Below, one piece after another: positions 1 through 35,800 of a stretch of DNA of 37,846 nucleotides. The notes under the pieces are model-generated. The model saw nothing but the letters and a program-made list of their open reading frames with translations, ran no database searches and was not told where the DNA came from. Every line of letters begins with the position of its first letter. Positions within the stretch are counted from its first letter, which is position 1. The stretch comes from Falsigemmobacter faecalis (GTDB taxonomy: Bacteria; Pseudomonadota; Alphaproteobacteria; Rhodobacterales; Rhodobacteraceae), in contig NZ_RRAZ01000033.1 in the NCBI RefSeq assembly GCF_003863335.1, positions 1-37,846 of the forward strand, read 5' to 3'. The translations under genes and the position numbers were made by a program.

Positions 1-1
1 T

Positions 2-314
2 GAACGGCTGGCAGAGGCCGGGATCGAGCCCTCTGTCGGCAGCGTCGGTGACAGCTGTGACAACGCCCTGGCCGAGACGATCAACGGTCTGTTCAAGGCA
101 GAGGTCATTCACAGGCGTGGTCCGTGGCGGAACTTTGAAGCCGTCGAATACGCCACGCTGGAATGGGTCGACTGGTTCAACAACCCCTCGCCGGTTCTCT
201 TGAACCGGTGGCGTTCACCGGCTCGACCTGCTCGGGCCAATCGGGAACATCCCACCCGCCGAGGCAGAGGCAAACTTCTATGCAGCTCTGGAAACTGAAG
301 CCATGGCCGCATAA
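2..314 (+). pseudogene. IS3-family transposase OrfB, C-terminal part, frameshifted
   Basis: The frame starting at base 2 reads GDSCDNALAETINGLFKAEV, the block around the catalytic glutamate of IS3-type DDE transposases, then EWVDWFNN up to about base 184. The family motif that should follow (close to RLLEPIGNIPP) is found in another frame from about base 219 (RLDLLGPIGNIPPAEAE), running to a TAA at 312-314. The 34 nt between these points (185-218) fit neither frame and contain two overlapping hairpins. I read this as a short palindromic insertion that shifted the frame. The start is outside the window. Confidence 0.8.
185..218. repeat. Short palindromic insertion inside the IS3 transposase
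   Basis: Arms CCGGTT (191-196) and AACCGG (203-208) form one hairpin. CCGGTG (205-210) and CACCGG (216-221) form a second that overlaps it. The segment interrupts two well-conserved transposase blocks and changes the frame by one base. Its borders are inferred from protein alignment by memory, so they may be off by a few bases. Confidence 0.55.
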
Positions 315-5193: not shown

Positions 5194-5302
5194 GGGCTTT
5201 GTTGCGCTATTAGGGATGAGGTCGGAATTGTCCCTTTCCCAGACACCTTCAGCGCATGCGGACGGTCTCGGGCGTGCCGAGAGATGTAAAGCGGTTCATG
5301 AC

Positions 5303-5342
5303 TGAGCGGTCGAACGTCATCGGTTCGAGAGAGACCGCGAAG
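5303..5342. repeat. Palindromic insertion near the transposase C-terminus
   Basis: On the plus strand the segment has arms TCGAAC (5310-5315; CGAAC core) and GTTCGA (5323-5328), with outer arms GCGG (5306-5309) and CCGC (5335-5338). It separates the transposase blocks EVQIRI and VMNRF and moves the frame by one base. Borders are inferred from the expected protein and may shift by up to one codon. Confidence 0.6.
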
Positions 5343-5819
5343 GATGCGGATCTGGACCTCTGCAGCCTGCCTGTCGAAGTCTCTGGCCATGATGCGCTCA
5401 CCGAGGAGTTTGACGCATCTCATCCTGGCCTCCACGCGACTTCGTCGGTGATATCCGGACCATTTCTTCCAGTTGGCCCGTCCGAACCGTTTGCATGCAC
5501 GTAGCGCTTCGTTGCGGGCCTGCAGGCCGGGGTCGTCGCCCTTCCAGGCTCTGGCATTTCGTCGTGGTGGTATGATGGCATCGGCACCTCGGGCCGCGAT
5601 GGCGGTATGAGAGCCTTTAGTGTCATAGATACCGTCGGCGGTGACACGACCGAGCGCCTCTTCAGCCGGGATCTGCGCCAGCAGGTCCGGCAGAACGGGC
5701 GCATCCCCGATGCGGTTTCTGGTCGTCTCCACCGCGCGAACTTCAAGTGTTTCAGCATCAATCGCGATGTGAACCTTGCGCCATTGCCTGCGACGGCTGG
5801 CCCCATGCCTGCGAATATG

Positions 5820-5865
5820 AGCCGGGCCAGAAAACAGTCCGGGGGACTGTTTTCCAGGCGATTGA
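5820..5865. repeat. Palindromic insertion in the middle of the IS5 transposase
   Basis: A perfect 10-bp stem, AAAACAGTCC (5831-5840) and GGACTGTTTT (5844-5853), has a 3-nt loop. The roughly 46-nt segment separates GEGEW from RRHGASRRRQ and shifts the frame. From memory, similar GGACTGTTTTCC palindromes are frequent between genes of Rhodobacteraceae, which would make this a member of a dispersed family; I could not verify this. Confidence 0.6.
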
Positions 5866-6416
5866 CCACTCGCCTTCGCCCGAGAGCTTGATTCCTGTGC
5901 TGTCCACCAACAGATGCAGCGGACCGGACGCCGCACGATACGGGATCTGCACCTTCAGGTGCTTCTGCCTGCGGCAGAGCGTCGTATAATCCGGCGTCGG
6001 CCAATCGAGCCCGGACAGGCTCAGAAGGCTCTCTACAAACCCTGTCGTTTGCCGCAGCGGCAGCCCGAACAGCACCTTGAGCGAGAGGCAGAATTGGATG
6101 GCAGCCGCCGAAAACCTCTCAGGATGACCCGGTTTGCCGTTCGGGGTCGCGAACCAGGACATCTTCGGGTCAAACCACACCATCAGAGAACCGCGGCGCT
6201 TCAGAGACTGGCTGTAGCTGGACCAGTTCGTCGTGCGGAAATGCGGGACAGGCTTGCTCATATGTCTACCTTAAACCCCTGACTCACAAATATGAATCCG
6301 CAGGTCGGATGGATAGTGCAACAAAGCCCATCTGTGCCGTTCGGGGGCGCTGCATGTCAGAGGCGCGCGACGGGGGCCCCGAGGGATCGGCGCCGCCCAT
6401 TGCGACGGGTTAATCT

Positions 6417-13976: not shown

Positions 13977-15992
13977 ATGTCATTGCCCTCTCCCCGTGCC
14001 AATCTTTGGCTGCTTGCGCTGACCAGCGCCTCCGTGCTGGCGCTGTCAACCGCGCTTCAGGCACAAGAACAGACAGAAGGCGATGGTGAGACGCTCCTGA
14101 GCATCATTCAACTGGTCTCCGGCGGGCAGGATAATGTCGAAGCCACCGGCGGCACTGAGGTGAATGATGACGATCTTGACCGTCTGAAACCCGATGATGT
14201 CTCTGATCTTTTCAGCCGTGAATCGAGCGTTTCAGTCTCTGGCGGCGGTGGGGCAGCCAAGCGGGTGAGCGTGCTGGGCATCGAGCAGTCTCTGCTCGCC
14301 ACCAGCGTGGATGGGGTCCCGCAAGGCGCAACCGCATGGCACAATACCGGCTCAAATGTCGTTGATCCGGCATTTCTGAAAGCGGTCAAAGTTGAGGCCG
14401 GTGCCGCCGCTGCGGATGCCGGTTTTGGCGCAGGGGCAGGCTCGCTGCGCTATGAAACCGACAATGCCCATGATCTGTTGGACGCCGGGAAAGACATTGG
14501 CAGCCGTGTTGCACTTTCCTACGGGAGCAACGGCCGTGGCACCGCGCTGAGTTTTGCAAATTACGGGCGTCACAAAGGTCTTGACTGGCTCGTCATGGTC
14601 AATGGCGCCAATGACAAAGATTACAAAGACGGCAACGGTGCCGTGTCGCAAGGCACCAAGGCTGCAGGCCGTAACGCATTGGCCAAATTTGGTTTTGAAG
14701 CCGAAGGCCACCGCTTTGAGCTGGGCTATCAGCGCAGCCGTGACAATGACGATCGTCTTCAACGCCCCAACCTCGGCAATCCCGGCAGCCGCACATTGCA
14801 CTCGCTGAAGGTCAGCAACGATACGCTGAAGCTTTCCTATACCACCACGGACAGCACGGACTTCTGGAACCCTGAAGTTTCCTTCTATCTGAGCGATTTT
14901 GAGTATTGGCGCGACAACTACTCAACCGATTTTGCCGGCGACGCGACCTTCAGCGAGCAGCAATTCGGCGGTAAGGTGCAAAATACGTTCGACCTGGGTT
15001 ACGGTCGCATCACCGCCGGTCTGGACTTCAACAGCCACGACTATTTGGTCGACAACTACGCAACCGCAGCACAATCCAACTACACGCGCTATCGCGATTT
15101 CTCGACCCAGCAGATCGGGCTGTTCGCTCAGGGACGTTTTGAGTTTGAAAATGGCATCAGCCTGTCGACGGGCGCGCGCCTTGACCGCCACCGCTTTGAT
15201 GACTGGAACGGCAAGCGTTTCTCAGACACCGGCACCAGCCTGAATGCGACGCTGGCTTACCGCCTGAATGACACGGTTGAGGTCTTCGCAGGCGCCTCGG
15301 ACACCTGGCTCGGCTATGTGGTCGGGGATTACGGCTATCTGCACGCGCGGGTCAAAGGCTTCCAAAGCTCGCCCGATCTGCAGGCCGGCAAGTCAAAGAA
15401 TTATAAGATCGGCGCGAACTTCGGCGGCGACAGCTGGCAGGCCGGCGTGACTTAGTTCGACACCCGCGTGCGCAATCTGTTTGACTATGGCGCGGTGAAA
15501 TCGGCCACTGTCCTGACCAACAAACCCGAGGAGTTCCGTTCTAAAGGCGTCACGCTGAATGCGGCCTATGACTTCGGTGCGACGAAAATCGGTGCAAGCT
15601 ACACCAAAGCGGATGTGACCGAAGGGGGCATCGATCTGGTGCCGTCGAAAGGTGAGTTCTTCGCGCCGGTGGGCAAACAGGCGACGCTTTACATCGATCA
15701 CCAGCTTGCTGATTGGGACATGAGCATCGGCGCCAGCGCCAGCTGGGCCGGCGGCCTGAACGAGACCAGAAAAGGCACGACGGTCTACAACGCACTGGAC
15801 GGCTATAACGTTGTAAATGCCTGTGCAGAGTGGACGCCTTCGTCGCACAAAGGCCTCGCTGTCCGCCTCGGCGTCGATAACCTCTTCGACCAGCGCTATT
15901 CTGAGCGTTCCGGGATCGGCAGCACCAATCGTCTTGATCCGGTCTACGCACCCGGTCGCACGATGACGCTGAAAGCGAGCCTGAAGTTCTGA
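13977..15992 (+). pseudogene. TonB-dependent outer-membrane receptor interrupted by an amber codon
   Basis: The frame is open for 671 codons except for TAG at 15453-15455 (codon 493). A signal peptide (cut near ALQAQEQ) precedes a plug domain with NVEATGGTEVNDDDLDRLKPDDVSDLF and RVSVLGIEQSLLATSVDGVPQG. A beta-barrel with alternating aromatic strands ends in KASLKF, the terminal Phe typical of outer-membrane barrels. Receptors of this type import iron-siderophore or haem using TonB energy; the ligand is unknown. Without readthrough the product lacks the last quarter of the barrel and could not insert properly. ACAGGA lies 6 nt before the ATG. Confidence 0.85.
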
Positions 15993-24967: not shown

Positions 24968-25619
24968 GCGCTATGCTCTGGCGCTGGCGCTTCTGGGCGC
25001 CGGCGCCCTGCCCGTCTGCGCCGAGCCTGGCGCTGACTTTGTGTTTCGGGTGCAGGGGGATGGTCGGCTGATCAGCGGCAAAGGCACCGCGAAGCCTCGA
25101 GTGCCTGGATCTCTTTTCCTCTTTGAACAAAACGACCGGTCGGCTGATAAGGCCGACCCCGTTCCTGCAGACCGGGATCATGCGCCCGCGCCCGCTGCGG
25201 AGGTCCTGCAGGCCATTGAGGCCACGGCCCTGCGTTACGCCGGACACGGTGCACTCAAAGCAGCCGGGCTCACGCTTTCCGACTGGATGCTCTTTTACCG
25301 CGCGAACATCGAGGTTGAGAGCCGTTATCAGCTGCAGGCCCTCAGCCCGGCAGGGGCCATCGGCCCCGGTCAGCTGATGCCGGCAACGGCGGCGGATCTC
25401 GGCGTGGATCCTTATGACTGGCGTCAGAACCTCGACGGCTCGGCGCGCTATCTGCTGCAGATGCTCGCACTTTTCGGCACAACCGAGCTCGCGCTCGCCG
25501 GCTATAACGCCGGGCCCGAAGCCGTGCGCCGCCACGGCGGTATTCCCCCCTATCCCGAGACCCGCAGCCATCTTGCCCGCGTCGCCCAAGTGGTCGCGCG
25601 CCTCAAAGGAGAGGTCTGA
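24903..25619 (+). CDS. virB1: VirB1-type lytic transglycosylase
   Basis: The enzyme cuts peptidoglycan to make room for the secretion channel. The 238 residues comprise a signal segment (ALALALLGAGALPVCAEP), a linker rich in Asp and Ala, and a soluble lytic transglycosylase domain. Motifs are IEVESRYQ (catalytic Glu139), SPAGAIGPGQLMPATAADLG, and LALAGYNAGPEAVRRHGG. The start is uncertain: ATG 24903 lies inside the upstream gene in another frame and has no strong ribosome-binding site, but no later ATG precedes the signal peptide. Its stop overlaps the VirB2 ATG. Confidence 0.87.
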   Translation: MSRSKPAAACNTSCRPSRSKTERYALALALLGAGALPVCAEPGADFVFRVQGDGRLISGKGTAKPRVPGSLFLFEQNDRSADKADPVPADRDHAPAPAAEVLQAIEATALRYAGHGALKAAGLTLSDWMLFYRANIEVESRYQLQALSPAGAIGPGQLMPATAADLGVDPYDWRQNLDGSARYLLQMLALFGTTELALAGYNAGPEAVRRHGGIPPYPETRSHLARVAQVVARLKGEV

Positions 25620-25912
25620 TGACCCATAGCCGCCTCATCTCCACCGCAGCCCTCCTCACCCTCACCCTCGGGCTCGCGGCCCCCGCGCTCGCGCAAAGTA
25701 TTGACCTCTCCCCTGTCCAGACGCTGCTGCAGGGCATCGTCGATGCCATCACTGGTCCCTTGGGCATGGTGATTGGCACGCTCGCGATGATCGGCGTCTT
25801 CCTCTCCTGGCTTTTCGGTATTCTGGACTTCCGTCAGGCGCTTTGGGTCGTCGTGGCCATCGCCGGCATCGCGGCCGCACCGACCATCGTCGCCGCCATC
25901 TGGACCACCTGA
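25619..25912 (+). CDS. virB2: VirB2 pilin
   Basis: VirB2 forms the conjugative pilus. The 97-residue precursor has a signal peptide ending near APALAQ and two long hydrophobic helices, GPLGMVIGTLAMIGVFLSWL and WVVVAIAGIAAAPTIVAAIW, with a short polar loop (DFRQ) between them, the TrbC/VirB2 plan. The ATG overlaps the previous stop as TGATG. Confidence 0.9.
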   Translation: MTHSRLISTAALLTLTLGLAAPALAQSIDLSPVQTLLQGIVDAITGPLGMVIGTLAMIGVFLSWLFGILDFRQALWVVVAIAGIAAAPTIVAAIWTT

Positions 25913-25930
25913 TCAGACAGCAGGTGCAGA

Positions 25931-26209
25931 ATGCCGGATCCTTCCCCCCTTTTCATCGGCCTTCTGCGTCCGCCGCGGCTGCTGGGTCTGCCAATCCTCT
26001 ATGCCATGTCCTGGCTCTTTGGCTCAGTGCTGCTCTTTCTCTGGGTGCAGAGCTGGGTCATCGCGGCGCTCGCTCTGATGATCTGGCCTCTTCTGTGGAA
26101 GGCCGCAGACCGCGACCCGAACTTCCTCGATGTGCTCGCCATCACCCTGCAGGAGACCCCGCCCACGCGGAACCGCAAACACCACGATGGCGACAGCTAT
26201 GCACCCTGA
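25931..26209 (+). CDS. virB3: VirB3 inner-membrane protein
   Basis: VirB3 is a small inner-membrane partner of VirB4. The 92 residues start with the typical LFIGLLRPPRLLGLP, followed by one or two closely spaced membrane segments (YAMSWLFGSVLLFLWVQSWVIAALALMIW, read in parts) and a short hydrophilic tail with DPNFLDVL. It sits between virB2 and virB4 as in other virB operons. Confidence 0.9.
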   Translation: MPDPSPLFIGLLRPPRLLGLPILYAMSWLFGSVLLFLWVQSWVIAALALMIWPLLWKAADRDPNFLDVLAITLQETPPTRNRKHHDGDSYAP

Positions 26210-28553
26210 TCCAAGCTTTCACGCAACGCCGAACTGGCTCGCCCGGGAGCGCCGGCTCGCCCATATGCTGCCCTATGTCAGCCTCGTGGACGATCACACC
26301 ATCCGCACCCGCGGCAATGAGCTGATGCAGTGCATCCGCCTTGAGGGAATTGGCAGCAGCACCAGCGACACGGCCCATCTCGACCGCATCGGCGGGCTCC
26401 TCGCCGGCGTCATCGCCCAGATCGGCACAGGCTATTCCTGGTATCTCCACAAGGTCTCAAAGGCCGTCGACACCCGCCTGCCGCCGATCACCGGTGACAG
26501 CTTTGCAGCCGCGCTGGACCGGCGCTGGCAGGCCCATCTGGCCGGGGCAGGGCTGCGCGATAAAAGCCTGACCCTCACCCTTCTGCAGCGGCCCGCCACT
26601 TCGCCTCGCATGAGCCTCACCGCCCTGCGCTCCCGCGCAGCACTCGCGGGCGAGCTGGAGCGCCGCATGCGTCATCTCGACGAGGTCACCGGCTTTTTGC
26701 TGCCGACCTTTGCTGAGCTGAAGCCGCGGCTGCTGACCGCGGCCAGCGGCGAGCTTTTGGGCTTCCTCGGCAGCCTTAACACCGGGGCAGAACATCCGCT
26801 CTTCGCGCGCTCACTCTTCGGGCTGATCGCTGAGGATGTCTCCAACACCCGTGCGACCTTTAAAGGTCGCAGGATCCATCTCTCGGAAGGGGCTTCGGGC
26901 GAGAAGATCGGCGAGATCTTTGCCGTCAAAACCTATCCAGCCCGCACCGACAGCCTGATGCTCGATGAGCTGAACCTGCCCGTCGATATGGTGGTGAGCC
27001 ATTCCTTCACCCCGATCAATTCCAACCTGATGGCCGGCCGCATCAAGCGCCAGCTGCGTCTGATGCAGGCCAGCAAAGACGGCGCCGTCAGCCTCGAGGC
27101 AGAGCTTGCGGAGGCCCAGGATGATCTCGAAGCCCGGCGGCTGATCTTTGGCGATCATCATATGAGCGTCGCTGTCTATGCCCGCACCCCTGCTCATCTT
27201 GATGAGATCTGCGCGGAGGTGCGCAATATTGCGGCCTCCTCCGGCATCAATCTGATCTCCGAGAGCTTCGGGGCGCGGGCGCATTATATGGCCCAGCATC
27301 CGGGCAACAGCGCCGCCCGCAGCCGCAAAGCCACGATTACCAACCACAATTTCGCCGATCTGGCCACCTTTCACCGCAGCCCCACCGGCAAAGCGGCCAC
27401 GGAGCTGCCCTGGGGCGTGCCGCTGGTCCTCTTCCCAACGCCCGAGCGTTCGGGGTTTCATTTCAGCTTCCATGAGACGGGCGCGCCCAACCGCGAGCCC
27501 ACCAGCGGCCACAGCCTGATCCTGGGCCGCCCGGGCTCGGGCAAATCCGTCCTTGCCGCCTTCCTGATGGCCATGGCACGGCGCGCCGGCGCCCGGCTCT
27601 TCGTCTTTGACTACCGCGCCGGCATGGAAATGGCCGTGCGCGCCATGGGTGGCAGCTATTCCACTATCCGCGCCGGGCGTACCACCGGCCTCAATCCGCT
27701 GGCGACCGAGATCGATCCCCGCGGCCAGGCCTGGCTTGCCGACTGGCTCGCAGCCCTTCTTGAGCGTCCCGACCAGCCCCTGAGCCCGGTGCAGACCAAC
27801 CGCCTGCAGGAGGTCGTGCGCCAGAACGCCGGCGCTCGCGACGCGCGGCTGCGCAACTGGTCGGACTTCGCCTCGCTCCTTGTCTCCACCGATGACGAGG
27901 GCGATCTCTTTGAGCGCATGCAGGAATGGTGTGGCAATGGCCGCTATTCCTGGATCTTCGGCGCCGGTGCACAGGACAGCTTTGAAATCGGTGGGGAGGT
28001 CTCAGGCTTTGATCTCACCGGCATTCTGGATTCTGAGAGCCCGCGCGAGCGCATGGCGGTGCTCTCCTATCTCTTCCGCCGCGTCGAGCGGGTGATTGAG
28101 GATCGCCGCCCCACCGTCATCCTGATCGATGAAGCCTGGAAAGCGCTCGACAATGACTATTTCGCCGAACGGCTGAACAATTGGCTGGTCACCGCCCGTA
28201 AACAAAACGCCGTTGTCGTGATGATGACGCAATACGCCAGCCAGCTGGAACGCAGCCGCACCGGCAAAACCATTATTGAAGCCGTGCCGACCCAGATCCT
28301 GCTGCCAAACATCCGGGCGACCGCCGCGGATTATGCGCTCCTCGGGCTCTCCGGGAAAGAACTGGGTCTTCTGACCAGCGCGCCCGGCAACGCCCGGCTG
28401 GCCCTGGTGCGTGATGACCGCGGCTCTACCGTGATCGATGCCGATCTCTCGGCGCTTGGTCCCCTCGTGACCCTCCTTGGCGGCATGGAGACCGGCGAAC
28501 AGCTCGCAGGATCCGATTACCGCAGCCGCCCGGATTTTTGGAAACTCCTCTGA
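26199..28553 (+). CDS. virB4: VirB4 ATPase
   Basis: VirB4 is the large ATPase that powers pilus assembly and substrate transfer at the inner membrane. The 784 residues have the usual N-terminal half (LPYVSLVDDHTIRTRGNELM) and a C-terminal AAA+/RecA-like domain with Walker A LGRPGSGKSVLAAF, Walker B TVILIDEAWKAL and a following MMTQYASQLERS block. Two ATG codons are possible, 26187 and 26199; the second is given because the product then begins close to the conserved region. Both overlap the end of virB3. Codon use matches the rest of the operon. Confidence 0.95.
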   Translation: MHPDPSFHATPNWLARERRLAHMLPYVSLVDDHTIRTRGNELMQCIRLEGIGSSTSDTAHLDRIGGLLAGVIAQIGTGYSWYLHKVSKAVDTRLPPITGDSFAAALDRRWQAHLAGAGLRDKSLTLTLLQRPATSPRMSLTALRSRAALAGELERRMRHLDEVTGFLLPTFAELKPRLLTAASGELLGFLGSLNTGAEHPLFARSLFGLIAEDVSNTRATFKGRRIHLSEGASGEKIGEIFAVKTYPARTDSLMLDELNLPVDMVVSHSFTPINSNLMAGRIKRQLRLMQASKDGAVSLEAELAEAQDDLEARRLIFGDHHMSVAVYARTPAHLDEICAEVRNIAASSGINLISESFGARAHYMAQHPGNSAARSRKATITNHNFADLATFHRSPTGKAATELPWGVPLVLFPTPERSGFHFSFHETGAPNREPTSGHSLILGRPGSGKSVLAAFLMAMARRAGARLFVFDYRAGMEMAVRAMGGSYSTIRAGRTTGLNPLATEIDPRGQAWLADWLAALLERPDQPLSPVQTNRLQEVVRQNAGARDARLRNWSDFASLLVSTDDEGDLFERMQEWCGNGRYSWIFGAGAQDSFEIGGEVSGFDLTGILDSESPRERMAVLSYLFRRVERVIEDRRPTVILIDEAWKALDNDYFAERLNNWLVTARKQNAVVVMMTQYASQLERSRTGKTIIEAVPTQILLPNIRATAADYALLGLSGKELGLLTSAPGNARLALVRDDRGSTVIDADLSALGPLVTLLGGMETGEQLAGSDYRSRPDFWKLL

Positions 28554-28777
28554 TGCACCCCCTCACCCCGATCTGCCGTCTCCGCCCTGTCGCAGGTCTC
28601 GCGCTCGGCGGGCTCCTCCTTCTGGCCGCCTGTTCCAAAGGCGAGGCCATCAAGCCCAATTGCTTCACAAGTGAGCAAACCGCTCTCACCCCGACCGTGA
28701 CCCTCTCAACCCGCGGCACCGCTGACACGGCCCTGCCCGGTCCCTGTCACTTCCGGCCCTTGCAGCATGCGGGCTGA
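28553..28777 (+). CDS. Small lipoprotein, VirB7-like by position
   Basis: The 74-residue protein has a signal peptide with a lipobox, LLLLAAC, so Cys27 would be lipidated. A second Cys lies at NCFTS and a third at GPCHF. VirB7 is a small outer-membrane lipoprotein that pairs with VirB9, and this is the only lipoprotein in the operon. The assignment rests on size, lipobox and operon, since VirB7 sequences are poorly conserved. The ATG overlaps the virB4 stop (TGATG). Confidence 0.65.
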   Translation: MHPLTPICRLRPVAGLALGGLLLLAACSKGEAIKPNCFTSEQTALTPTVTLSTRGTADTALPGPCHFRPLQHAG

Positions 28778-29951
28778 GCGCCAGCCCCGCAGGCGTTCTG
28801 CGACCTGCGCAGTTATTCTCGGCTCGGCCTTCCTGGCTCCCCTGCCGCTTGCCGCCCAGGGCGTGCCCGTCTTTGACGCGGCGGGCTTTCTGCGCACGGG
28901 CGCCATCATCGCGCAGCGTGACCGCGATCTGACGCTGCAAAGTGCAAGGCGCAGCCGCGAGGCTGAGCTCGCGCAGCTGCGCGAGGCCCAGCTGGCGGCG
29001 CTGGAGGGCATCGGAGCTGCGCTCCAACGGGATCCGACAGCCCATGAGCATACCGAGTCCTCCGCACTCCGCGCGCTGGAGGACGGCACCTCCCCTGGGT
29101 CATCCGCGGCTTCGCTTTATGGCGCAGACGACCCCAACCCCGCGGCCGCTCGCCTCTTTGGCGATGCAAAAGCCGATATCGAGGCGTTGATCATTCGTGC
29201 CGCCGAGGAGACCCACGGCCTGCCCGGCATCACCGCTGCCGGTCTGAGCCCGCTGCAATGGCGCTGTCTGCTGCAGGCCCTGGTCTGGCAGGAAAGCCGG
29301 TTCCAGATTGGTGCGCGCTCCCCCGTCGGCGCTTATGGGCTGACCCAGATCATGCCCGCCACCGCGGGCGATCTTGGCATTTTGCCTGACTATTACGACG
29401 ATCCCTACCTCCAGCTCACCGGTGGCGCGCGCTATCTCGCGCAGATGCTGGCGATGTTTGACGGCAATCTTATCCATGCGCTCGCCGCCTATAACGCCGG
29501 GCCCGGCAATGTCCGCAGCCACGGTGGCGTGCCGCCCTTCGCCGAAACGCAAAACTATGTGCTGAGCCTGCCCGCGCAATATAACCGCTATCTCGCGGAG
29601 ATCGGCGGTCCGGAGGCGCGCGGCAGCATTGATCCGGTCCTGCTCGCCAATGCGGGCCTCAGCCTCTCAGCTCACAGTGCCGGTTCGTACGGCGATTATG
29701 CCACGGTCTCAGTCACCACCGTCGCCGCACGGCTGCAGGAGATCATCCGCCGTATTCCCGAGACCCGTGACGCGCAGGAAGCGCTTGCGCTCAACAGCTA
29801 CGCCCGCGCGGAACTCGCCCGCATCCTCGCCATCCGCGCCCGCATCAAAGCCGCCCGCCTCGCGCCCGAGGGCGCCGAGCAACTGCGTCTGGCCGCTGAG
29901 CAGGCGGCTGATCGGCGCTATATGATCTGGGAAGGTCAAAACCTCCAATGA
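28767..29951 (+). CDS. Lytic transglycosylase with VirB5-like N-terminus
   Basis: The 394-residue secreted protein has three parts. After a signal peptide (cut near PLAAQG) comes VPVFDAAGFLRTGAIIAQRD and a coiled-coil stretch rich in Arg, Glu and Leu (residues 32-85), which resembles the mature start of VirB5. A lytic transglycosylase domain follows, with WQESRFQ (catalytic Glu176), SPVGAYGLTQIMPATAGDLG and ALAAYNAGPGNVRSHGG. The last 100 residues are helical and rich in Ala. This is a second peptidoglycan-cutting enzyme in the same operon. It overlaps its neighbours at both ends. Confidence 0.85.
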   Translation: MRAERQPRRRSATCAVILGSAFLAPLPLAAQGVPVFDAAGFLRTGAIIAQRDRDLTLQSARRSREAELAQLREAQLAALEGIGAALQRDPTAHEHTESSALRALEDGTSPGSSAASLYGADDPNPAAARLFGDAKADIEALIIRAAEETHGLPGITAAGLSPLQWRCLLQALVWQESRFQIGARSPVGAYGLTQIMPATAGDLGILPDYYDDPYLQLTGGARYLAQMLAMFDGNLIHALAAYNAGPGNVRSHGGVPPFAETQNYVLSLPAQYNRYLAEIGGPEARGSIDPVLLANAGLSLSAHSAGSYGDYATVSVTTVAARLQEIIRRIPETRDAQEALALNSYARAELARILAIRARIKAARLAPEGAEQLRLAAEQAADRRYMIWEGQNLQ

Positions 29952-30718
29952 AACAACTCCTTCTCGCCGCAGGGCTCGGGCTGACCCTCAACCTGCCCGC
30001 CGCTGCTCAGGGCGTGCCCACCATCGACACCCGCAATATCGCGCAGGAGATCCGGCAGCTGCAGCAGATGCTGGAGGATTTCGGGATCCAGACCGACCAG
30101 CTCGACACCCTCCTCAAAACCCTCAGCCTCGTGCAAAACCAGCTCGATCAGCTGCGCTCCACCTATGCAGCCCTCACCGGCCCGCGATCCATTCCCGGCC
30201 TGTTGCTGGGCGAAGGTCTCGACGGGCTTCTCGAGGCAAAGTTCTCAGACCTTTCGGGTCTCATCCGCGGCATTCAGGCCGGGGACTGGAGTGGCCTGAT
30301 CGGTGGCGCCGCAGGCCCGCTCGGCACGCAGATGGAAGCGGCCCTCGCAAAAGCCGGCTTTGACAGCGACAGCCTGCAAAAGATCGCCACCAGCGGTAAA
30401 CCCGGTGCCGAAGGCATCGCAACCCGCGCCAGCACGGGTGCCGTGATCTCAACGGCTGCGCAAAACAGCCACGCCGAGGCGGGGCAATCGTTGCAGCGCG
30501 TGGAGCACCTCGTGAGCCTGATCCCCGAGATGGAAGACCTCAAGGCCTCTATGGATCACAACACCCGCGTCACTGCAGAGCTGGCCATCGCCATGACCCG
30601 TATCTGGGAGCTCGAGGCCATCCAGACCATCGGTGCCGGCACTGCCGGTCTCATCGATGCCGCCACCCTGGCGGAGGAGCGCCGCTACATGGACTTCACG
30701 CTTCCGGAGCTCAAATGA
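29948..30718 (+). CDS. virB5: VirB5 minor pilin subunit
   Basis: VirB5 sits at the pilus tip and helps contact with recipients. The 256 residues have a signal peptide (cut after PAAA), the mature start QGVPTIDTRNIAQEIRQLQQ, a long helical region and the closing helix AEERRYMDF common to TrbJ/VirB5 proteins. Start and stop overlap the flanking genes as ATGA. Confidence 0.85.
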   Translation: MKQLLLAAGLGLTLNLPAAAQGVPTIDTRNIAQEIRQLQQMLEDFGIQTDQLDTLLKTLSLVQNQLDQLRSTYAALTGPRSIPGLLLGEGLDGLLEAKFSDLSGLIRGIQAGDWSGLIGGAAGPLGTQMEAALAKAGFDSDSLQKIATSGKPGAEGIATRASTGAVISTAAQNSHAEAGQSLQRVEHLVSLIPEMEDLKASMDHNTRVTAELAIAMTRIWELEAIQTIGAGTAGLIDAATLAEERRYMDFTLPELK

Positions 30719-31383
30719 CCGCTGCTGCTAACCTGACCTCACTTCAGGAGGTCGTCGAGGAAGAGCTGATCTGCGGCGCGCTGCGCCGCGAAGGTCAGTG
30801 GCGTCTGATGGGGATCATCGGCGCGGGCTTTGGCGTCACCGGCTGCCTCGCTGCCGCCGCCGTTGCCCTCATGGTCGACGCCCCGCCGCCCCTGATTGTG
30901 CCCTATGATCCCGCAACGGGTCTCGCCCTGCCGCGGGCCACGGTGGAGGCCGTGCACCTTTCCGAGCGGCCCGCCGTCACCGAAGCCCAGATCTACCGCT
31001 ATATCCATGACCGTGAGAGCTACAACCAGCTCGACAATGACCTGCGGGTACGCCGCGTGCTGACCCAGTCGGATGGTCAGGCTGGAGCCGGCATGCGCGC
31101 GCTCTGGACCAGCGGACAGCCCGACTATCCGCCCTCCCGCTACGGCGCCGGCGCGGAGATGTCCGTTGAGATCGCCAGCATTTCGCTGATCGGCACAAAC
31201 CGCGCCCAGGTGCGGCTGCGCAAGAAGCTGATCAGCCCTCAGAGCAATCAGACCGGCCAGTTCACAGCCACCCTGATGTTTGCGTTCCGCCCCGAAGCCC
31301 CGCGCGATCTCGATCAAGTCTGGCAAAATCCCTTCGGCTTCACCGTCACCCAATATGCCATCCGATCGGACCGCTCTGAATGA
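30715..31383 (+). CDS. virB8: VirB8 inner-membrane scaffold
   Basis: VirB8 is a bitopic inner-membrane protein that links the channel parts. The 222 residues have a short cytoplasmic tail, one membrane segment (MGIIGAGFGVTGCLAAAAVALMV) and a periplasmic NTF2-like domain with VTEAQIYRYIHDRESYNQLD and ISLIGTNRAQVRLRKK, ending in WQNPFGFTVTQYAIRSD, as in the family. Confidence 0.93.
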   Translation: MTAAANLTSLQEVVEEELICGALRREGQWRLMGIIGAGFGVTGCLAAAAVALMVDAPPPLIVPYDPATGLALPRATVEAVHLSERPAVTEAQIYRYIHDRESYNQLDNDLRVRRVLTQSDGQAGAGMRALWTSGQPDYPPSRYGAGAEMSVEIASISLIGTNRAQVRLRKKLISPQSNQTGQFTATLMFAFRPEAPRDLDQVWQNPFGFTVTQYAIRSDRSE

Positions 31384-32081
31384 TCCGCCCCCTCACCTGT
31401 GCCCTGAGCGCGCTTTTGCTCTGCGCCACTGCCCCGGGCTTTGCCGAAACCACCCCGCGCTCCGGCCCGCATGACAGCCGCGTCCGGAGCGCCACCTGGA
31501 CCGAAGGTCAGGTCTACCGGGTCGTGACTTCGCTGACCCGCGTGACCTCGATCGAATTTGGGACAGGCGAGACCATCCGCTCGATCATCGCGGGCGACAC
31601 CGCGGGCTTCCAGTTTGACGGTGTGCCCGGCGGCCAGGCCTTCGCCATCAAGCCTGTGCTTGAAGGGGCCGCGACCAATATCATCGTCTATACCAACCGC
31701 CGATCCTACTATTTCCACGTCGTGGAGGCGGGCACGACCTCGCATTACGTCGTGCAGTTCCGCTATCCCGAGCCGCTGAGCCGGGCCAGCCGCGCGGTCG
31801 CTTCCGCCGCACCGAACTACGCCTATGCCGCCAGCGGTGACGGCGCCTTTCGCCCGGAAGCCGTCTGGGACGACGGCCGCTTTACGTATTTCCGCTTCGC
31901 ACCGGATGCGCCCATGCCGGCGATCTTCCGGATGAGTGGCAGCAAAGAACGCCTGGTCAATGCGGTCGTACAAAGCGAGGGCGTCATGCGGGTCTCGGGC
32001 ACCAGCGGGCAATGGGTGCTGCGCATCGGCGAGGAAGTCATCTGCATTGAGGACGCCGCTAAGGCGAGGGCCGGCGCATGA
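31380..32081 (+). CDS. virB9: VirB9 core-channel protein
   Basis: VirB9 forms the outer-membrane core with VirB7 and VirB10. The 233 residues have a signal peptide (cut near APGFAE), an N-terminal domain with VYRVVTSLTRVTSIEFGTGE and NIIVYTNRRSYYFHV, and a C-terminal beta-domain with RFTYFRFAPDAPMPAIF. It overlaps virB8 and virB10 as ATGA. Confidence 0.94.
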   Translation: MIRPLTCALSALLLCATAPGFAETTPRSGPHDSRVRSATWTEGQVYRVVTSLTRVTSIEFGTGETIRSIIAGDTAGFQFDGVPGGQAFAIKPVLEGAATNIIVYTNRRSYYFHVVEAGTTSHYVVQFRYPEPLSRASRAVASAAPNYAYAASGDGAFRPEAVWDDGRFTYFRFAPDAPMPAIFRMSGSKERLVNAVVQSEGVMRVSGTSGQWVLRIGEEVICIEDAAKARAGA

Positions 32082-33346
32082 GCACGGAGCCTGCCGATCT
32101 CTCTGCCCGCCTCAAAGCGCTGGAAGCTGCGAGCGGGAAAGTGTCGGGCCGCCCGAAAGCACTGCTGCCGCTTGCTTTGGGGGGCGCGGGCCTTCTGATG
32201 GGGGGCTGCCTCCTCTGGGCGCTGAGCAGCGCACCGGCTGAGCCTCCGCTGCAAACGGCGGCGCCCGAAGAGTTCCAGACCCTCGGCTCGGGCTTTGGCG
32301 ATCTGCCGCCGCCCGTGCCGGTGAAGCCGCGTGCGGAAGCCCCGGCCGGGCCCACCCCGGCGGAAGAGGAGCTGCGTAAAAGCCTCGCCGCGCTGCAAAG
32401 CGAACTTGCGACGCTCAAATCCCGTCCCGTTGTGATCGAGAGCCCGCAGAGCAGTGATCCGGAAGCCCTGACCGCGCTCTCTGCGCAACTGGCGCAGATG
32501 GAAGCCACGGCTCGTGCGGCGGAAGACGCACTGGAGCGCCAGCTGACCGAGCGCGACCGCGAGCTCGAACGGCTGCGGATGGATCTGGAACTCGCAAAGC
32601 TCGGAGACACCGGCTCAGACAGCCGCGCGCCGCGAGGATCTGCCCCCGGGGACCGCATCACCTCGCCGCTGATTGCCTGGACCGGCTCCGACGCCGGCAG
32701 CAAATCTCCGGCGGAGGACCGCAGGCTCAGCGGGACGGAGGCCTTTGTGCGCGAAGGTGCGGTGGCGGCCCCGGTCAGCCGCGCCGCGGTGATCGTGAAC
32801 CCAGGCCATACCGTCCTGCAGGGGACGGTCATTCAGGCGGTGCTGGAAAGCGCAATGGACAGCAGCCAGCCCGGAGTGCTGCGGGCCGTGGTCTCCGAAG
32901 ATGTCCACGCACTTGACGGCTCGCGTGTGCTCATCCCGCGCGGCGCGCAGTTGCTGGGGCGCTATAAAGCCGATGTCGGGCTCGCCCAAGGACGGGTTAC
33001 GGTGGCCTGGGACCGGATCCTGCTGCCCGATCATCAAAGCGTCACCCTCAGCGCTTATGGCGGCGACGAGCTCGGCCGGGCGGGCGTCAGCGGACATGTC
33101 AACAGCCGCTTCGGCAAAAGGTTTGGCTCGGCGGCGCTGATCTCACTGATCGGTGCCGTGCCGGATCTCGCGCGCGCCGGGGTGGAAAGCGAACGCGCGG
33201 GGGACGTCGCAGGCGATGTCGCGGGTGATCTGCGCGACGCCAGCCGCAGTGTGATGCAGGACTATCTGACCCTGCGCCCGGTTATCCGGGTGCCGCAGGG
33301 GAGCCGCATCACCGTCATGGTCGATCGTGATCTGGAGATCCTGTGA
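32078..33346 (+). CDS. virB10: VirB10 channel protein
   Basis: VirB10 spans the envelope and senses ATP use at the inner membrane. The 422 residues contain a cytoplasmic tail, one membrane segment (ALLPLALGGAGLLMGGCLLW), a Pro-rich stretch, a coiled coil (residues 85-180) and the conserved beta-barrel with ILPDHQ-like RILLPDHQSVTL and NSRFGKRFG. A short repeat AGDVAGDVAGDL lies in the segment before YLTLRPVIRVPQGSRI. Confidence 0.94.
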   Translation: MSTEPADLSARLKALEAASGKVSGRPKALLPLALGGAGLLMGGCLLWALSSAPAEPPLQTAAPEEFQTLGSGFGDLPPPVPVKPRAEAPAGPTPAEEELRKSLAALQSELATLKSRPVVIESPQSSDPEALTALSAQLAQMEATARAAEDALERQLTERDRELERLRMDLELAKLGDTGSDSRAPRGSAPGDRITSPLIAWTGSDAGSKSPAEDRRLSGTEAFVREGAVAAPVSRAAVIVNPGHTVLQGTVIQAVLESAMDSSQPGVLRAVVSEDVHALDGSRVLIPRGAQLLGRYKADVGLAQGRVTVAWDRILLPDHQSVTLSAYGGDELGRAGVSGHVNSRFGKRFGSAALISLIGAVPDLARAGVESERAGDVAGDVAGDLRDASRSVMQDYLTLRPVIRVPQGSRITVMVDRDLEIL

Positions 33347-34350
33347 TGGACACCAGCTATCTGGAGCTCTCCCTCGAGCGGCTCGGCCCGACAATCCGCC
33401 GCGAAGATCTGATTGAGATCTGCATCAATCCCGACGGGCGCATTTTTGCGGAAGTTCGCGGTGATCTGCACATGCACCCCCTCGGTGTCACACTGAGCCC
33501 CACAGAGATCCGCGATCTTGGCACGCAGATCGCCTCGGTCGCCGGCAGCACGCTGAGTTCGCGCCGGCCCATTGTCTCCGTCAGCATTGCCTGTCAGGGC
33601 CGCCCGATCCGCGCCCAGGTGATCCAGCCGCCGGTGACGGAGGGCGGCTTTGCGATCTCGCTGCGGTTTTTTTCCAGCCTGCCGCTCAGCGAGATTAACC
33701 TCAGTTATCTGCACGGCGCCCCGCGGGAAGAAGAGGCGCGGCGCGCGGCAATGGCACGCGAACTCCGCGCAATCATTGCCACTGGCGATATCGCGGCCAC
33801 GCTGCAGCTTTGCGTCTCTGAGAAGCTGAACATGATCCTCGCGGGCGGCACCTCGACCGGCAAAACCGTCACCGCCCGCAAGATCCTCTCGCTGGTACCC
33901 GACAGTGAGCGGATCCTCACAATCGAAGAAGCCGCTGAACTCCGTCCCGAGCAGAGCAATGTGGTGACACTGCTCGCAGACCGCGACAACGAGGCCCGCA
34001 GCGCCGATGCGCTGCTGACGGCCGCTCTGCGGCTGCGTCCCGACCGCATTGTGCTCGGCGAAGTCCGTGGCCGTGAAGCGCTGACCTTCCTTGAGGCGAT
34101 CAACACCGGTCACGGCGGATCTCTGACCACACTTCACGCGGAAACCCCACAACTGGCGCTGCAGCGCCTCGCCATTGCCGCTCTCAAGACCGAGCTTCCG
34201 ATGAGCCATGCAGATATGCTGCGCTACATCCGCAGCTCCATCGATGTGATCATTCAGACCGGCCGCCACGGCGGCCGGCGCGGGATCACCGAGATCTGGC
34301 TGCCCGGGCAGGACGATGCCCAAGGCGACACCGCCTCCTCCCCCTCCTGA
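33346..34350 (+). CDS. virB11: VirB11 traffic ATPase
   Basis: VirB11 is the hexameric ATPase that switches the machine between pilus assembly and DNA transfer. The 334 residues show Walker A AGGTSTGKT, the Asp box ERILTIEEAAEL, RPDRIVLGEVRG as Walker B, and the His box TGHGGSLTTLHAE. The ATG at 33346 overlaps the virB10 stop (TGATG) and is preferred to the GTG one codon upstream. Confidence 0.95.
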   Translation: MDTSYLELSLERLGPTIRREDLIEICINPDGRIFAEVRGDLHMHPLGVTLSPTEIRDLGTQIASVAGSTLSSRRPIVSVSIACQGRPIRAQVIQPPVTEGGFAISLRFFSSLPLSEINLSYLHGAPREEEARRAAMARELRAIIATGDIAATLQLCVSEKLNMILAGGTSTGKTVTARKILSLVPDSERILTIEEAAELRPEQSNVVTLLADRDNEARSADALLTAALRLRPDRIVLGEVRGREALTFLEAINTGHGGSLTTLHAETPQLALQRLAIAALKTELPMSHADMLRYIRSSIDVIIQTGRHGGRRGITEIWLPGQDDAQGDTASSPS

Positions 34351-34361
34351 AAGATCTGCAG

Positions 34362-34775
34362 ATGAAGTTCCTCACCATGGCCCTGGTCATGACCCTTTTG
34401 CCCCTCACGGCCCAGGCTCAGGTGCCGATCAGCGGAGATCTGACCGTCAGCCTGAACCCGCAGCGCTATCGGATCTGTAATGACCGGCCCGAAAGACTGG
34501 CGTGGATGGAGACAATCGTCCCGCGGGAAGCTTATCGCGCAGTGACGCTGATGGAACTCTATGAACTGCGCTCATGGGAGACGATTGTTCGCAGTCAGGA
34601 TTGTTCCTGTGCGACCCGGTTCCCACCTTGGACCAATGCAGGAAACGAGTATGATAAAACCATCAGGCTGCTCAGTGCAGCTGAACACACCCGAAAGCAG
34701 CGAGAGCTCCGGCGCCAAGCGGCACAACTGAGATCCGCAGTGGAAACCGTCTGCCGCGCGCAGGGCAACTGGTAA
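34362..34775 (+). CDS. Small secreted protein in the virB operon
   Basis: The 137-residue protein has a signal peptide (MKFLTMALVMTLLPLTAQAQ) and four cysteines after it (RICNDR, QDCSC, TVCRAQ), probably disulphide-bonded in the periplasm. The C-terminal third is a charged helix. It lies 11 nt after virB11 and overlaps virB6. I do not know the family; its place suggests an accessory envelope part of the channel. Confidence 0.7.
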   Translation: MKFLTMALVMTLLPLTAQAQVPISGDLTVSLNPQRYRICNDRPERLAWMETIVPREAYRAVTLMELYELRSWETIVRSQDCSCATRFPPWTNAGNEYDKTIRLLSAAEHTRKQRELRRQAAQLRSAVETVCRAQGNW

Positions 34776-35800
34776 TGGGGGTGGTCAGCTGGATGGTCGG
34801 AAGTGCCGATGGCTTTCTCGCCTCTGCCGCGGAAAGTCAGTTTGGCGCGGTCGCCGGTCACCTTGGCACAGCAGCGCTGCTCATGGTTACGCTCTCCATC
34901 ATCGCGCTCTTTCTGAACATGGCATTCCAGTACCGGAGCATGGATGGCTCCAGCTTCTTTTGGTATCTACTGAAGCTATCGCTGATCGGGCTCTTTGCAT
35001 TCAACTGGGCTGAATTTAACGCGGTGGCGACCGCCGTGACCGGTGGGCTTGATTATATTGCCGGCACATTGGTCGCTTCAGTCGGCGGCAGTGGAGCTGG
35101 GGCAGGTCACTTCGCGGCCGAGTTTGACAACCTGATTGAACAGTTCAGCAAATATCTGAACGCCATCGGCGGCAATCTCAGCTGGATGACGGGCGCCATT
35201 CTGGGTGGGCTGGGTCTCATCATGCTGAGCCTGCTGGGCTTCCTGACCGGCATCGTGCTGATTTTTGGCAAGATGATGTTGTCGCTTATGCTGGGCCTCG
35301 CGCCTCTGATGATCACCCTCTCCCTCTTTGATGCCACGAAAGATTACTTCCATCGCTGGATCTCGACCACCGTAAGCTATGCCTTCTACCCGGTAGTCAT
35401 TGCAGCGATGTTCTCAACGGTCGTCGGCATGGCCAATGCCCTGCTGGCTGAACTGGGTGATCCTGCCTCTGCCACCAATATCGGGTCGCTGGTGCCCTTC
35501 TTTGTCATGGTGTTTTTGGCGAAGGGATTTGTCGCGGCAACCCCGATCATCGTGCGGGGGCTGTCAGGCAACTTCATGCTGATCGCGGGGCCGGCGGTGG
35601 CCGCAGGGGCAGCCGGCCTCACGCGTGGGCTCGCCAATACCCGCTCTGTACAGGCCCGGGCACTAAGCGGCGGCCTGAGCGGCACAGAGCTCGCCGGGCG
35701 CGCTATTATTCAGACGCCTGCGGCGACGCGGGCAGCAGTCCTGAGCAGCGGCGCACAAATCGCCCGCATAGCTGAACGCGCACGGCGGTTGGGACAGTAA
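34775..35800 (+). CDS. virB6: VirB6 polytopic channel protein
   Basis: VirB6 is the polytopic inner-membrane protein of the channel. The 341 residues show about six hydrophobic segments, the central LSLMLGLAPLMITLSLFDATKDYFHRWISTT block typical of VirB6/TrbL (read in parts, residues 165-195), and a hydrophilic Ala/Arg-rich tail. In the classical order VirB6 lies before VirB8; here it comes after VirB11. The ATG overlaps the previous stop (TAATG). Confidence 0.9.
   Translation: MGVVSWMVGSADGFLASAAESQFGAVAGHLGTAALLMVTLSIIALFLNMAFQYRSMDGSSFFWYLLKLSLIGLFAFNWAEFNAVATAVTGGLDYIAGTLVASVGGSGAGAGHFAAEFDNLIEQFSKYLNAIGGNLSWMTGAILGGLGLIMLSLLGFLTGIVLIFGKMMLSLMLGLAPLMITLSLFDATKDYFHRWISTTVSYAFYPVVIAAMFSTVVGMANALLAELGDPASATNIGSLVPFFVMVFLAKGFVAATPIIVRGLSGNFMLIAGPAVAAGAAGLTRGLANTRSVQARALSGGLSGTELAGRAIIQTPAATRAAVLSSGAQIARIAERARRLGQ

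Follow-up and report, generated by a model that had tools for sequence, protein, structure and literature searches.

Probably mobile hairpins of 41-50 nt in insertion-sequence genes of Falsigemmobacter faecalis and related bacteria

Hairpins in the transposase genes of the window

The window analysed here, a stretch of 37,846 nt from a draft genome of Falsigemmobacter faecalis, opens within an IS3-family orfB gene, followed by an istA-like gene of IS21 type and an IS5-family transposase gene (Table 1). The IS3 and IS5 genes are interrupted by short hairpin elements, which we assign to two families, F1 and F2. Elsewhere in the window, judged by eye from the translations, frames at 25619-35800 resemble a type IV secretion (VirB-like) cluster, and a TonB-dependent-receptor-like frame at 13977-15992 is apparently split near 15455-15468.

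Table 1. Genes and hairpin elements in the window
Feature	Position	Strand	Basis
3' part of IS3-family orfB gene, interrupted by F2	1..314	+	alignment with homologues
F2 hairpin element in IS3 orfB, net +37	about 185..227	-	F2 core at 196-216; homologue alignment
IS21-type istA-like gene, 545 open codons	1218..2855	-	ORF list; F1 site filled in another genome (L133), empty here
IS5-family (ISPam1-like) transposase gene, split by F1 and F2	5249..6261	-	79.6% identity to ISPam1 over 95% of query
F2 hairpin element (CTGAGCGGTC ... GACCGCGAAG), about 41 nt for native GTGC, at 3' end of IS5 gene	5302..5342	+	37-nt net block
F1 hairpin element (TATGAG ... CGATTGA), 50 nt for native CCTG	5816..5865	+	46-nt net block relative to L114, L115 and L116
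F1 inner stem, arms 5830-5840 and 5844-5854, loop GGG 5841-5843	5830..5854	+	perfect 11-bp stem; same positions covary in other copies

ISPam1, to which the IS5-family gene is related, is an insertion sequence of Paracoccus aminophilus; its copy at locus L114 is annotated as a complete gene and served as the intact reference in our alignments. Relative to this and two further hairpin-free copies, the window gene carries a single clean block: on the plus strand, the hairpin-free copies read GCGAA, CCTG, CCACTCG, and the window has 50 nt (5816-5865) in place of CCTG. The block consists of TATGAGCCGGGCCA, the 11-bp stem with its GGG loop, and then CAGGCGATTGA, and our F1 model scores the copy at 68.4 bits over 5812-5872. 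The original prediction, that a hairpin-forming insertion of about 46 nt shifts the frame of this transposase, was borne out, the net gain being +46, and a repeated TCA triplet leaves the frame unrestored. Its borders (5820-5865) were right to within a few bases, its three-base loop stands, and its 10-bp stem proved to be one of 11 bp. The proposed alignment with intact copies thus gave borders with a few bases' ambiguity and one block, and no target duplication was seen at this site, where 4 nt were replaced.

Transposase genes often decay, and drift, scattered indels or a chance palindrome might be thought to produce such a structure without any insertion. Scattered indels and drift are ruled out by the one clean block relative to three copies, and a chance palindrome by the repeat copies elsewhere in the genome and by shuffling, as the F1 core pattern matches the window once (at most 3 mismatches) compared with a mean of 0.00 in 100 shuffles; we give this explanation practically no credence. 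No Rfam family matched the window at the gathering score, and a repeat finder overlooked the hairpin because of its minimum repeat length.

A second palindrome predicted in the same gene is likewise real, forming one block with a net gain of 37 nt, with the F2 core at 5312-5332 and GA flanking both arms. The third, predicted at 185-218 in the IS3 gene, is present and has a greater extent than was proposed; it is missing from three homologous loci (L323, L325 and L326; net 37), and at L324, a further homologue (Paracoccus versutus pBEN), this site is occupied by a hairpin of equal length in which both stem arms have changed in a matched way (GCAGGT/ACCTGC vs GCCGGT/ACCGGC). All three inserts had been described as differing in sequence, which holds for the first, but the second and third belong to one family, F2, the core of which has 24 occurrences in the genome (at most 3 mismatches; reversed-pattern control 0). 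A provisional third family, F3, was rejected, being F2 on the opposite strand.

Structure, spread and hosts of the two families

F1 elements measure 47-50 nt and F2 elements about 41-45 nt. F1 folds from end to end, its 5' half reading x-T-(GA)-G-(GA, GC or CC)-GG, followed by an unpaired ATCA, an 11-bp variable stem and a three-base loop, and its 3' half CC-(GA, GC or GG)-C-(GA)-A-y, where x pairs with y. Among 38 copies, 13 pairs of the 20-pair hairpin change on both sides, with a covariation of 0.294 compared with 0.105 in shuffles (0 of 500), and F2 gave 0.315 compared with 0.143 (0 of 500), two of its five measures not exceeding the shuffles; as the shuffles keep the relatedness of the copies, neither family's figures are to be read as probabilities, and slid controls were much lower for both. 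In the same 38 copies the inner F1 stem is 98.8% paired, and the outer stem only 60.8%, owing to its frequent tandem G.A oppositions. Non-standard pairs occupy the tandem G.A positions in 25-35 of the 38 copies, and in some aligned copies ordinary pairs (GC/GC, CC/GG or TT/AA) take their place; we infer that these positions have a structural role. At the outermost position, x and y form a standard pair in 34 of the 38 copies, with three types of pair represented.

F1 and F2 have unrelated interiors and share the same base, TGA-arm ... arm-GA, when F2 is read on the strand that matches F1. For example, F2 has GTGAGCCAGTG ... CACTGGCGAACG, and F1-like copies outside the bacterial family have GTGAGCCGG ... 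CCGGCGAACG. Of 107 listed hairpin candidates, among which are chance hairpins and F1 arms, 38 have GA immediately flanking each arm on its outer side. The clamp pattern GTGAGCC..GGCGAACG hit only F2 hairpins in the genome itself (6 of 6; control 0), and in a scan of 385 genomes it gave hits in 80, mostly chance ones by inspection.

The genome is a 103-contig draft, with many hairpin copies near contig ends. Searching it with each palindrome, as the original prediction had proposed, gave 65 matches to the F1 model at E<=1e-3, including the 19 own-genome copies from which the model (R1) was built and which match by construction, besides the 24 places of the F2 core. The window palindrome itself was found at 10 genome sites (at most 3 mismatches), its reversed-pattern control giving 0. 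With 18 candidates scored per genome, at least 93 of 295 genomes of the bacterial family match F1, this one included; with 14 scored per genome, at least 12 of 385 genomes of the class do, two of them family members, and both counts are lower bounds. The exact F1 consensus occurs in 84 stretches of the genome collection, 80 of which are listed; their titles we take to be all of Rhodobacterales, save two titled only Alphaproteobacteria. These 80 loci (81 sites), together with 4 viral loci, make up a set of 85 sites in 39 clusters. In another alphaproteobacterium (G512), at least 5 F1-like hairpins stand in a row, spaced by about 110 nt (L174).

A phage origin was considered and rejected, as the window F1 copy found no match in the phage collection and viral contigs gave 4 stretches; phages are at most occasional carriers of F1.

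Transposase genes dominate among the hosts, but not to the exclusion of other genes. In other genomes, 30 of the 39 F1 clusters lie beside a transposase-type Pfam domain, a count that includes three below the Pfam cut-off (L247, L187 and L249) and one with a general helix-turn-helix only (L185), and that rests on one or two reading-frame segments per cluster, picked by a GC3 rule. The elements concerned are IS5, IS3, IS256, IS21, IS66, IS110 and IS481-like. Four of the other nine clusters resemble the matched ones by eye (L214, L221, L251 and L243, the last outside the Pfam scan), and five are unlike them (L217, L202, L234, L256 and L266), L202 and its partner L231 giving host-type domains. 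Outside insertion sequences, F1 lies beside a phage capsid gene and at the ends of a semialdehyde dehydrogenase gene and a cupin gene, and one copy is in frame within an open 455-codon frame with a match to a phage-type cytosine methylase below the Pfam cut-off. At L171, where a host gene with an in-frame F1 had been suspected, no plus-strand ORF of at least 100 aa overlaps the hairpin. The enrichment in insertion sequences arises partly because these elements copy their passengers. One cluster of 16 sites (L181; Paracoccus sp. MKU1 and others) represents a single IS5-type F1 site that recurs across several genera and, within one strain, at numerous contig ends; this insertion sequence seems to spread together with its hairpin, which lies near the transposase C-terminal codons.

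Insertion sites, signs of recent movement and effects on the host element

A counterpart was found for 60 of 117 hairpin copies, some counterparts carrying inserts themselves. Sound alignments to homologous native sequence were obtained at 20 of 23 sites, with net gains of 42 (7 sites), 43 (7), 45 (5) and 46 nt (1); the three rows dropped were two misalignments (L136, L123) and one with a net gain of 44 that measured 42 in another comparison (L127). As elements of 47-50 nt yield net gains of 42-46 nt, 4-5 nt are replaced. At most sites the ends of the element can be placed only to within a few bases, and no target-site duplication was seen at the native sites compared, where 4-5 nt were usually replaced; a polymorphic 54-nt hairpin in G188, a near-complete genome, shows no loss of bases, and C67 may be a further such case. 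Together, these alignments show the insertion of a repeated, structured unit.

The same short sites were struck again in different genomes, in either orientation. A site at GEW codons was hit in the window, in L134 and in the five-member L182 cluster, the hairpin being antisense to the gene in the window and sense in L134. Likewise, an HPW site in IS481 was hit in this genome, in G188 and in Cereibacter.

Several observations point to recent movement. A subfamily, F1b, is nested at one point of older F1 copies (TCCGGG|GGACT|GTTTTC, with five bases lost), and it gave 17 hits here and 0 in the 294 other genomes of the family, including the sole congener (at most 3 mismatches). Of 21 F1b rows listed, 18 are F1b copies, 15 of them clean composites and the rest cut or rearranged, and the outer copies around them have stems of four types and stand in no fewer than five different flanking contexts. 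Of five copies of one insertion sequence in G188, 3 have the 54-nt hairpin, whose base is the same, and 2 lack it.

Four IS481 copies in our genome have most of their inserts in common, at identical positions, apart from one copy without the insert at the second catalytic aspartate and one without part of a double insert. Across 6 pairs, the copies differ at 15-22% of third codon positions, 4-7% of first and second positions, 5-12% of noncoding ends and 2-5% of insert positions, ranges that leave out pairs with a distant copy (C49), for which third positions differ by 37-42% and inserts by 9-12%. The IS481 copies appear to have diverged while working and to have been entered later at identical positions. 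The low insert divergence would also follow from strong constraint or from conversion in very short tracts; against strong constraint, an insert of one IS481 copy has changes that break its stem. An 86-nt composite at the HPW site is identical in two copies whose left flanks show differences at distances of 3 and 9 nt from it.

The confinement of F1b hits to this genome, the G188 polymorphism and the low divergence of inserts relative to third positions all support mobility. We consider it very likely, on this comparative sequence evidence, that F1 and F2 form a family of mobile hairpins. The original prediction of a class of very small mobile palindromes that enter genes is thus upheld by the 65 matches, the taxonomic spread, the block insertions, the nesting and the polymorphism.

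Many inserts shift or stop the reading frame, so that the transposase should be disabled. However, the IS3 element of G188 carries a frame-shifting F1 in all 6 copies that span the site, with no empty copy, among 40 of 124 candidates scored; to have multiplied, it may either have used another transposase in trans, or have tolerated the insert, or have lost its empty parent. The IS481 HPW insert, with a net gain of 42, is in frame. The original prediction had named intact, active copies with such a segment in frame as contrary evidence; this is seen in part elsewhere, in IS481 copies with the HPW segment in frame and in the multiplied G188 element, and it limits the idea that inserts always kill the host element, not insertion itself. 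In the G188 orfB loci (L149-L153), F1 sets a UGA beside GGAGG, and a +1 shift would restore the downstream frame; such a shift is a possible escape, predicted from the sequence.

These data also bear on the idea that the inserts are spliced out of the mRNA, or that ribosomes skip them, leaving the transposases functional. Hairpin inserts within coding sequence occur as translational bypass elements in phage T4 gene 60 and as yeast mitochondrial byps, and inserts of similar size in coding sequence are what F1 has in common with them. The frame-shifting F1 in every site-spanning G188 copy scored would fit this idea, as would the excess of third-position changes in IS481 copies with several common inserts. 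However, F1 lies in both orientations relative to the gene (the window IS5 copy being antisense), its net lengths vary over 42-46 nt with stops at differing places, and the TCA repeat of the window leaves the frame unrestored. In addition, divergence is lower in the inserts than at third positions and in noncoding ends, so that the constraint can predate the inserts, and one IS481 insert has its stem broken. We regard splicing or bypass as very improbable.

Junctions of mixed F1 halves, with the left flank of one site or insertion sequence and the right flank of another (for example, IS481 with IS5), occur on contigs C13, C15, C19, C30, C32, C42 and C82 of this draft genome. They possibly reflect recombination at hairpins, deleting or fusing insertion sequences, or draft misassembly.

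Proposed mechanism and relation to known elements

We propose that F1 and F2 are non-autonomous and would be moved in trans by a single activity that recognises the GA-clamped base of a folded single strand, an activity suggested by the fact that the base is common to unrelated interiors. The folded strand would be pasted across a short target gap, and replication would then fix the inserted hairpin; single-stranded DNA is the candidate substrate, at slightly less than even odds. Hairpins would persist where harm is least, in insertion sequences, gene ends and tolerant protein loops; their transfer from genome to genome would be by insertion sequences, which recombination at the hairpin copies may delete or fuse. 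We assign this account as a whole, together with the hairpin families and insertions described above, a probability of roughly 0.7. A doubtful further possibility is a homing system in Rhodobacterales, in which one putative enzyme reads the tandem G.A clamp and pastes any such hairpin, regardless of interior, over a 4-5-nt word, so that variants revisit their own insertion-sequence sites and the loops of relatives, disabling competing mobile DNA. If true, this would be transposition without terminal repeats or target duplication, by elements of less than 50 nt.

The genome itself has no match to Y1_Tnp (PF01797), in a search that was positive in 5 of 14 control genomes, and none to RVT_1 (PF00078), so RAYT and reverse-transcriptase routes are without local support. 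The lack of such matches is in keeping with passive copying, the main rival that remains, in which palindromes stall replication and are copied by template switching or short-tract conversion, which keeps their arms matched, while insertion sequences amplify them. Template switching in palindromes could itself yield the matched arm changes, and junctions joining the flanks of different sites do exist. However, borders are consistent across many unrelated sites, one base is common to two families with unrelated interiors, and conversion could account for the identical 86-nt insert only if the tract were very short, as the left flanks already differ at 3 and 9 nt from it. Passive copying is therefore in our view unlikely, and we retain movement in trans as the preferred reading.

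F1 and F2 apparently represent a large, undescribed group of miniature mobile hairpins; a literature search, which had most subscription journals outside its reach, found no description of them. Their length of 41-50 nt is close to the lower limit for mobile DNA. The movement of elements of this kind is a long-standing question, with no enzyme known for CGTC REPs or for Rickettsia elements either, and here a copy-rich genome, a nested subfamily with hits in it alone, filled and empty sites within single genomes, a base common to two families and many borders come together as test material. By interrupting or fusing transposase genes of many families, the hairpins may shape the decay of insertion sequences and the annotation of genes in these bacteria.

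Our comparison with known systems draws on three sources (PMC3733652, PMC2229807 and PMC12306157). The CGTC and GTAG REPs with their RAYTs resemble F1 in being short hairpins with an oriented tail, alphaproteobacterial and in some cases intragenic (PMC3733652). F1 could be a divergent REP of the CGTC type, a superfamily that includes Rickettsia RPE-4 and RPE-6, whose transposase has since been lost: the opposite strand of F1 has CGTC near the hairpin, and such REPs are mostly alphaproteobacterial, can be intragenic and have no known transposase (PMC3733652). Yet CGTC REPs have, according to the same source, CGTC directly at the stem, a stem of 8-9 bp starting with AT, a loop of 4-5 nt and a CCA tail, whereas in F1 the CGTCGG is set off from the stem, which has 11 bp and begins with GA, the loop has 3 nt and the tail is TGATCCTCCTCA. 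The CCA tail is missing, as is AT at the first two stem positions, and the genome has no Y1_Tnp match; nor does the F1 base carry the GTAG tag of GTAG REPs. We find a REP origin slightly less credible still than splicing or bypass.

Pneumococcal RUP and other MITEs are also small, non-autonomous repeats, and RUP is reported from within more than six IS families (PMC2229807). Unlike them, F1 and F2 show no TA target or duplication here, and each element consists entirely of a single hairpin; a further candidate difference is that they would lack inverted repeats at their ends in common with an insertion sequence.

The original prediction likened the inserts to the palindromic elements of Rickettsia, and this likeness is well founded, as F1 is a small palindrome within genes in many copies, one of them in frame in the 455-codon frame. 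The Rickettsia elements are small and palindromic, lie inside genes in many copies, sometimes in frame, and likewise have no known moving enzyme (PMC2229807). They measure 105-146 bp according to the same source, compared with 47-50 nt for F1 and about 41-45 nt for F2, and F1 and F2 differ in lying mostly in transposase genes and in having a GA-clamped base. Some F1 copies share the in-frame habit (the 455-codon frame; IS481 HPW, net 42), but the window copy, with net 46, does not, and most copies in the window and in insertion sequences are out of frame. The best reading of these sequence comparisons is that F1 and F2 would work like the Rickettsia palindromic elements without being members of them. 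Overall, the nearest elements in kind are the Rickettsia palindromic elements and the CGTC REPs, and the nearest in target is the pneumococcal RUP.
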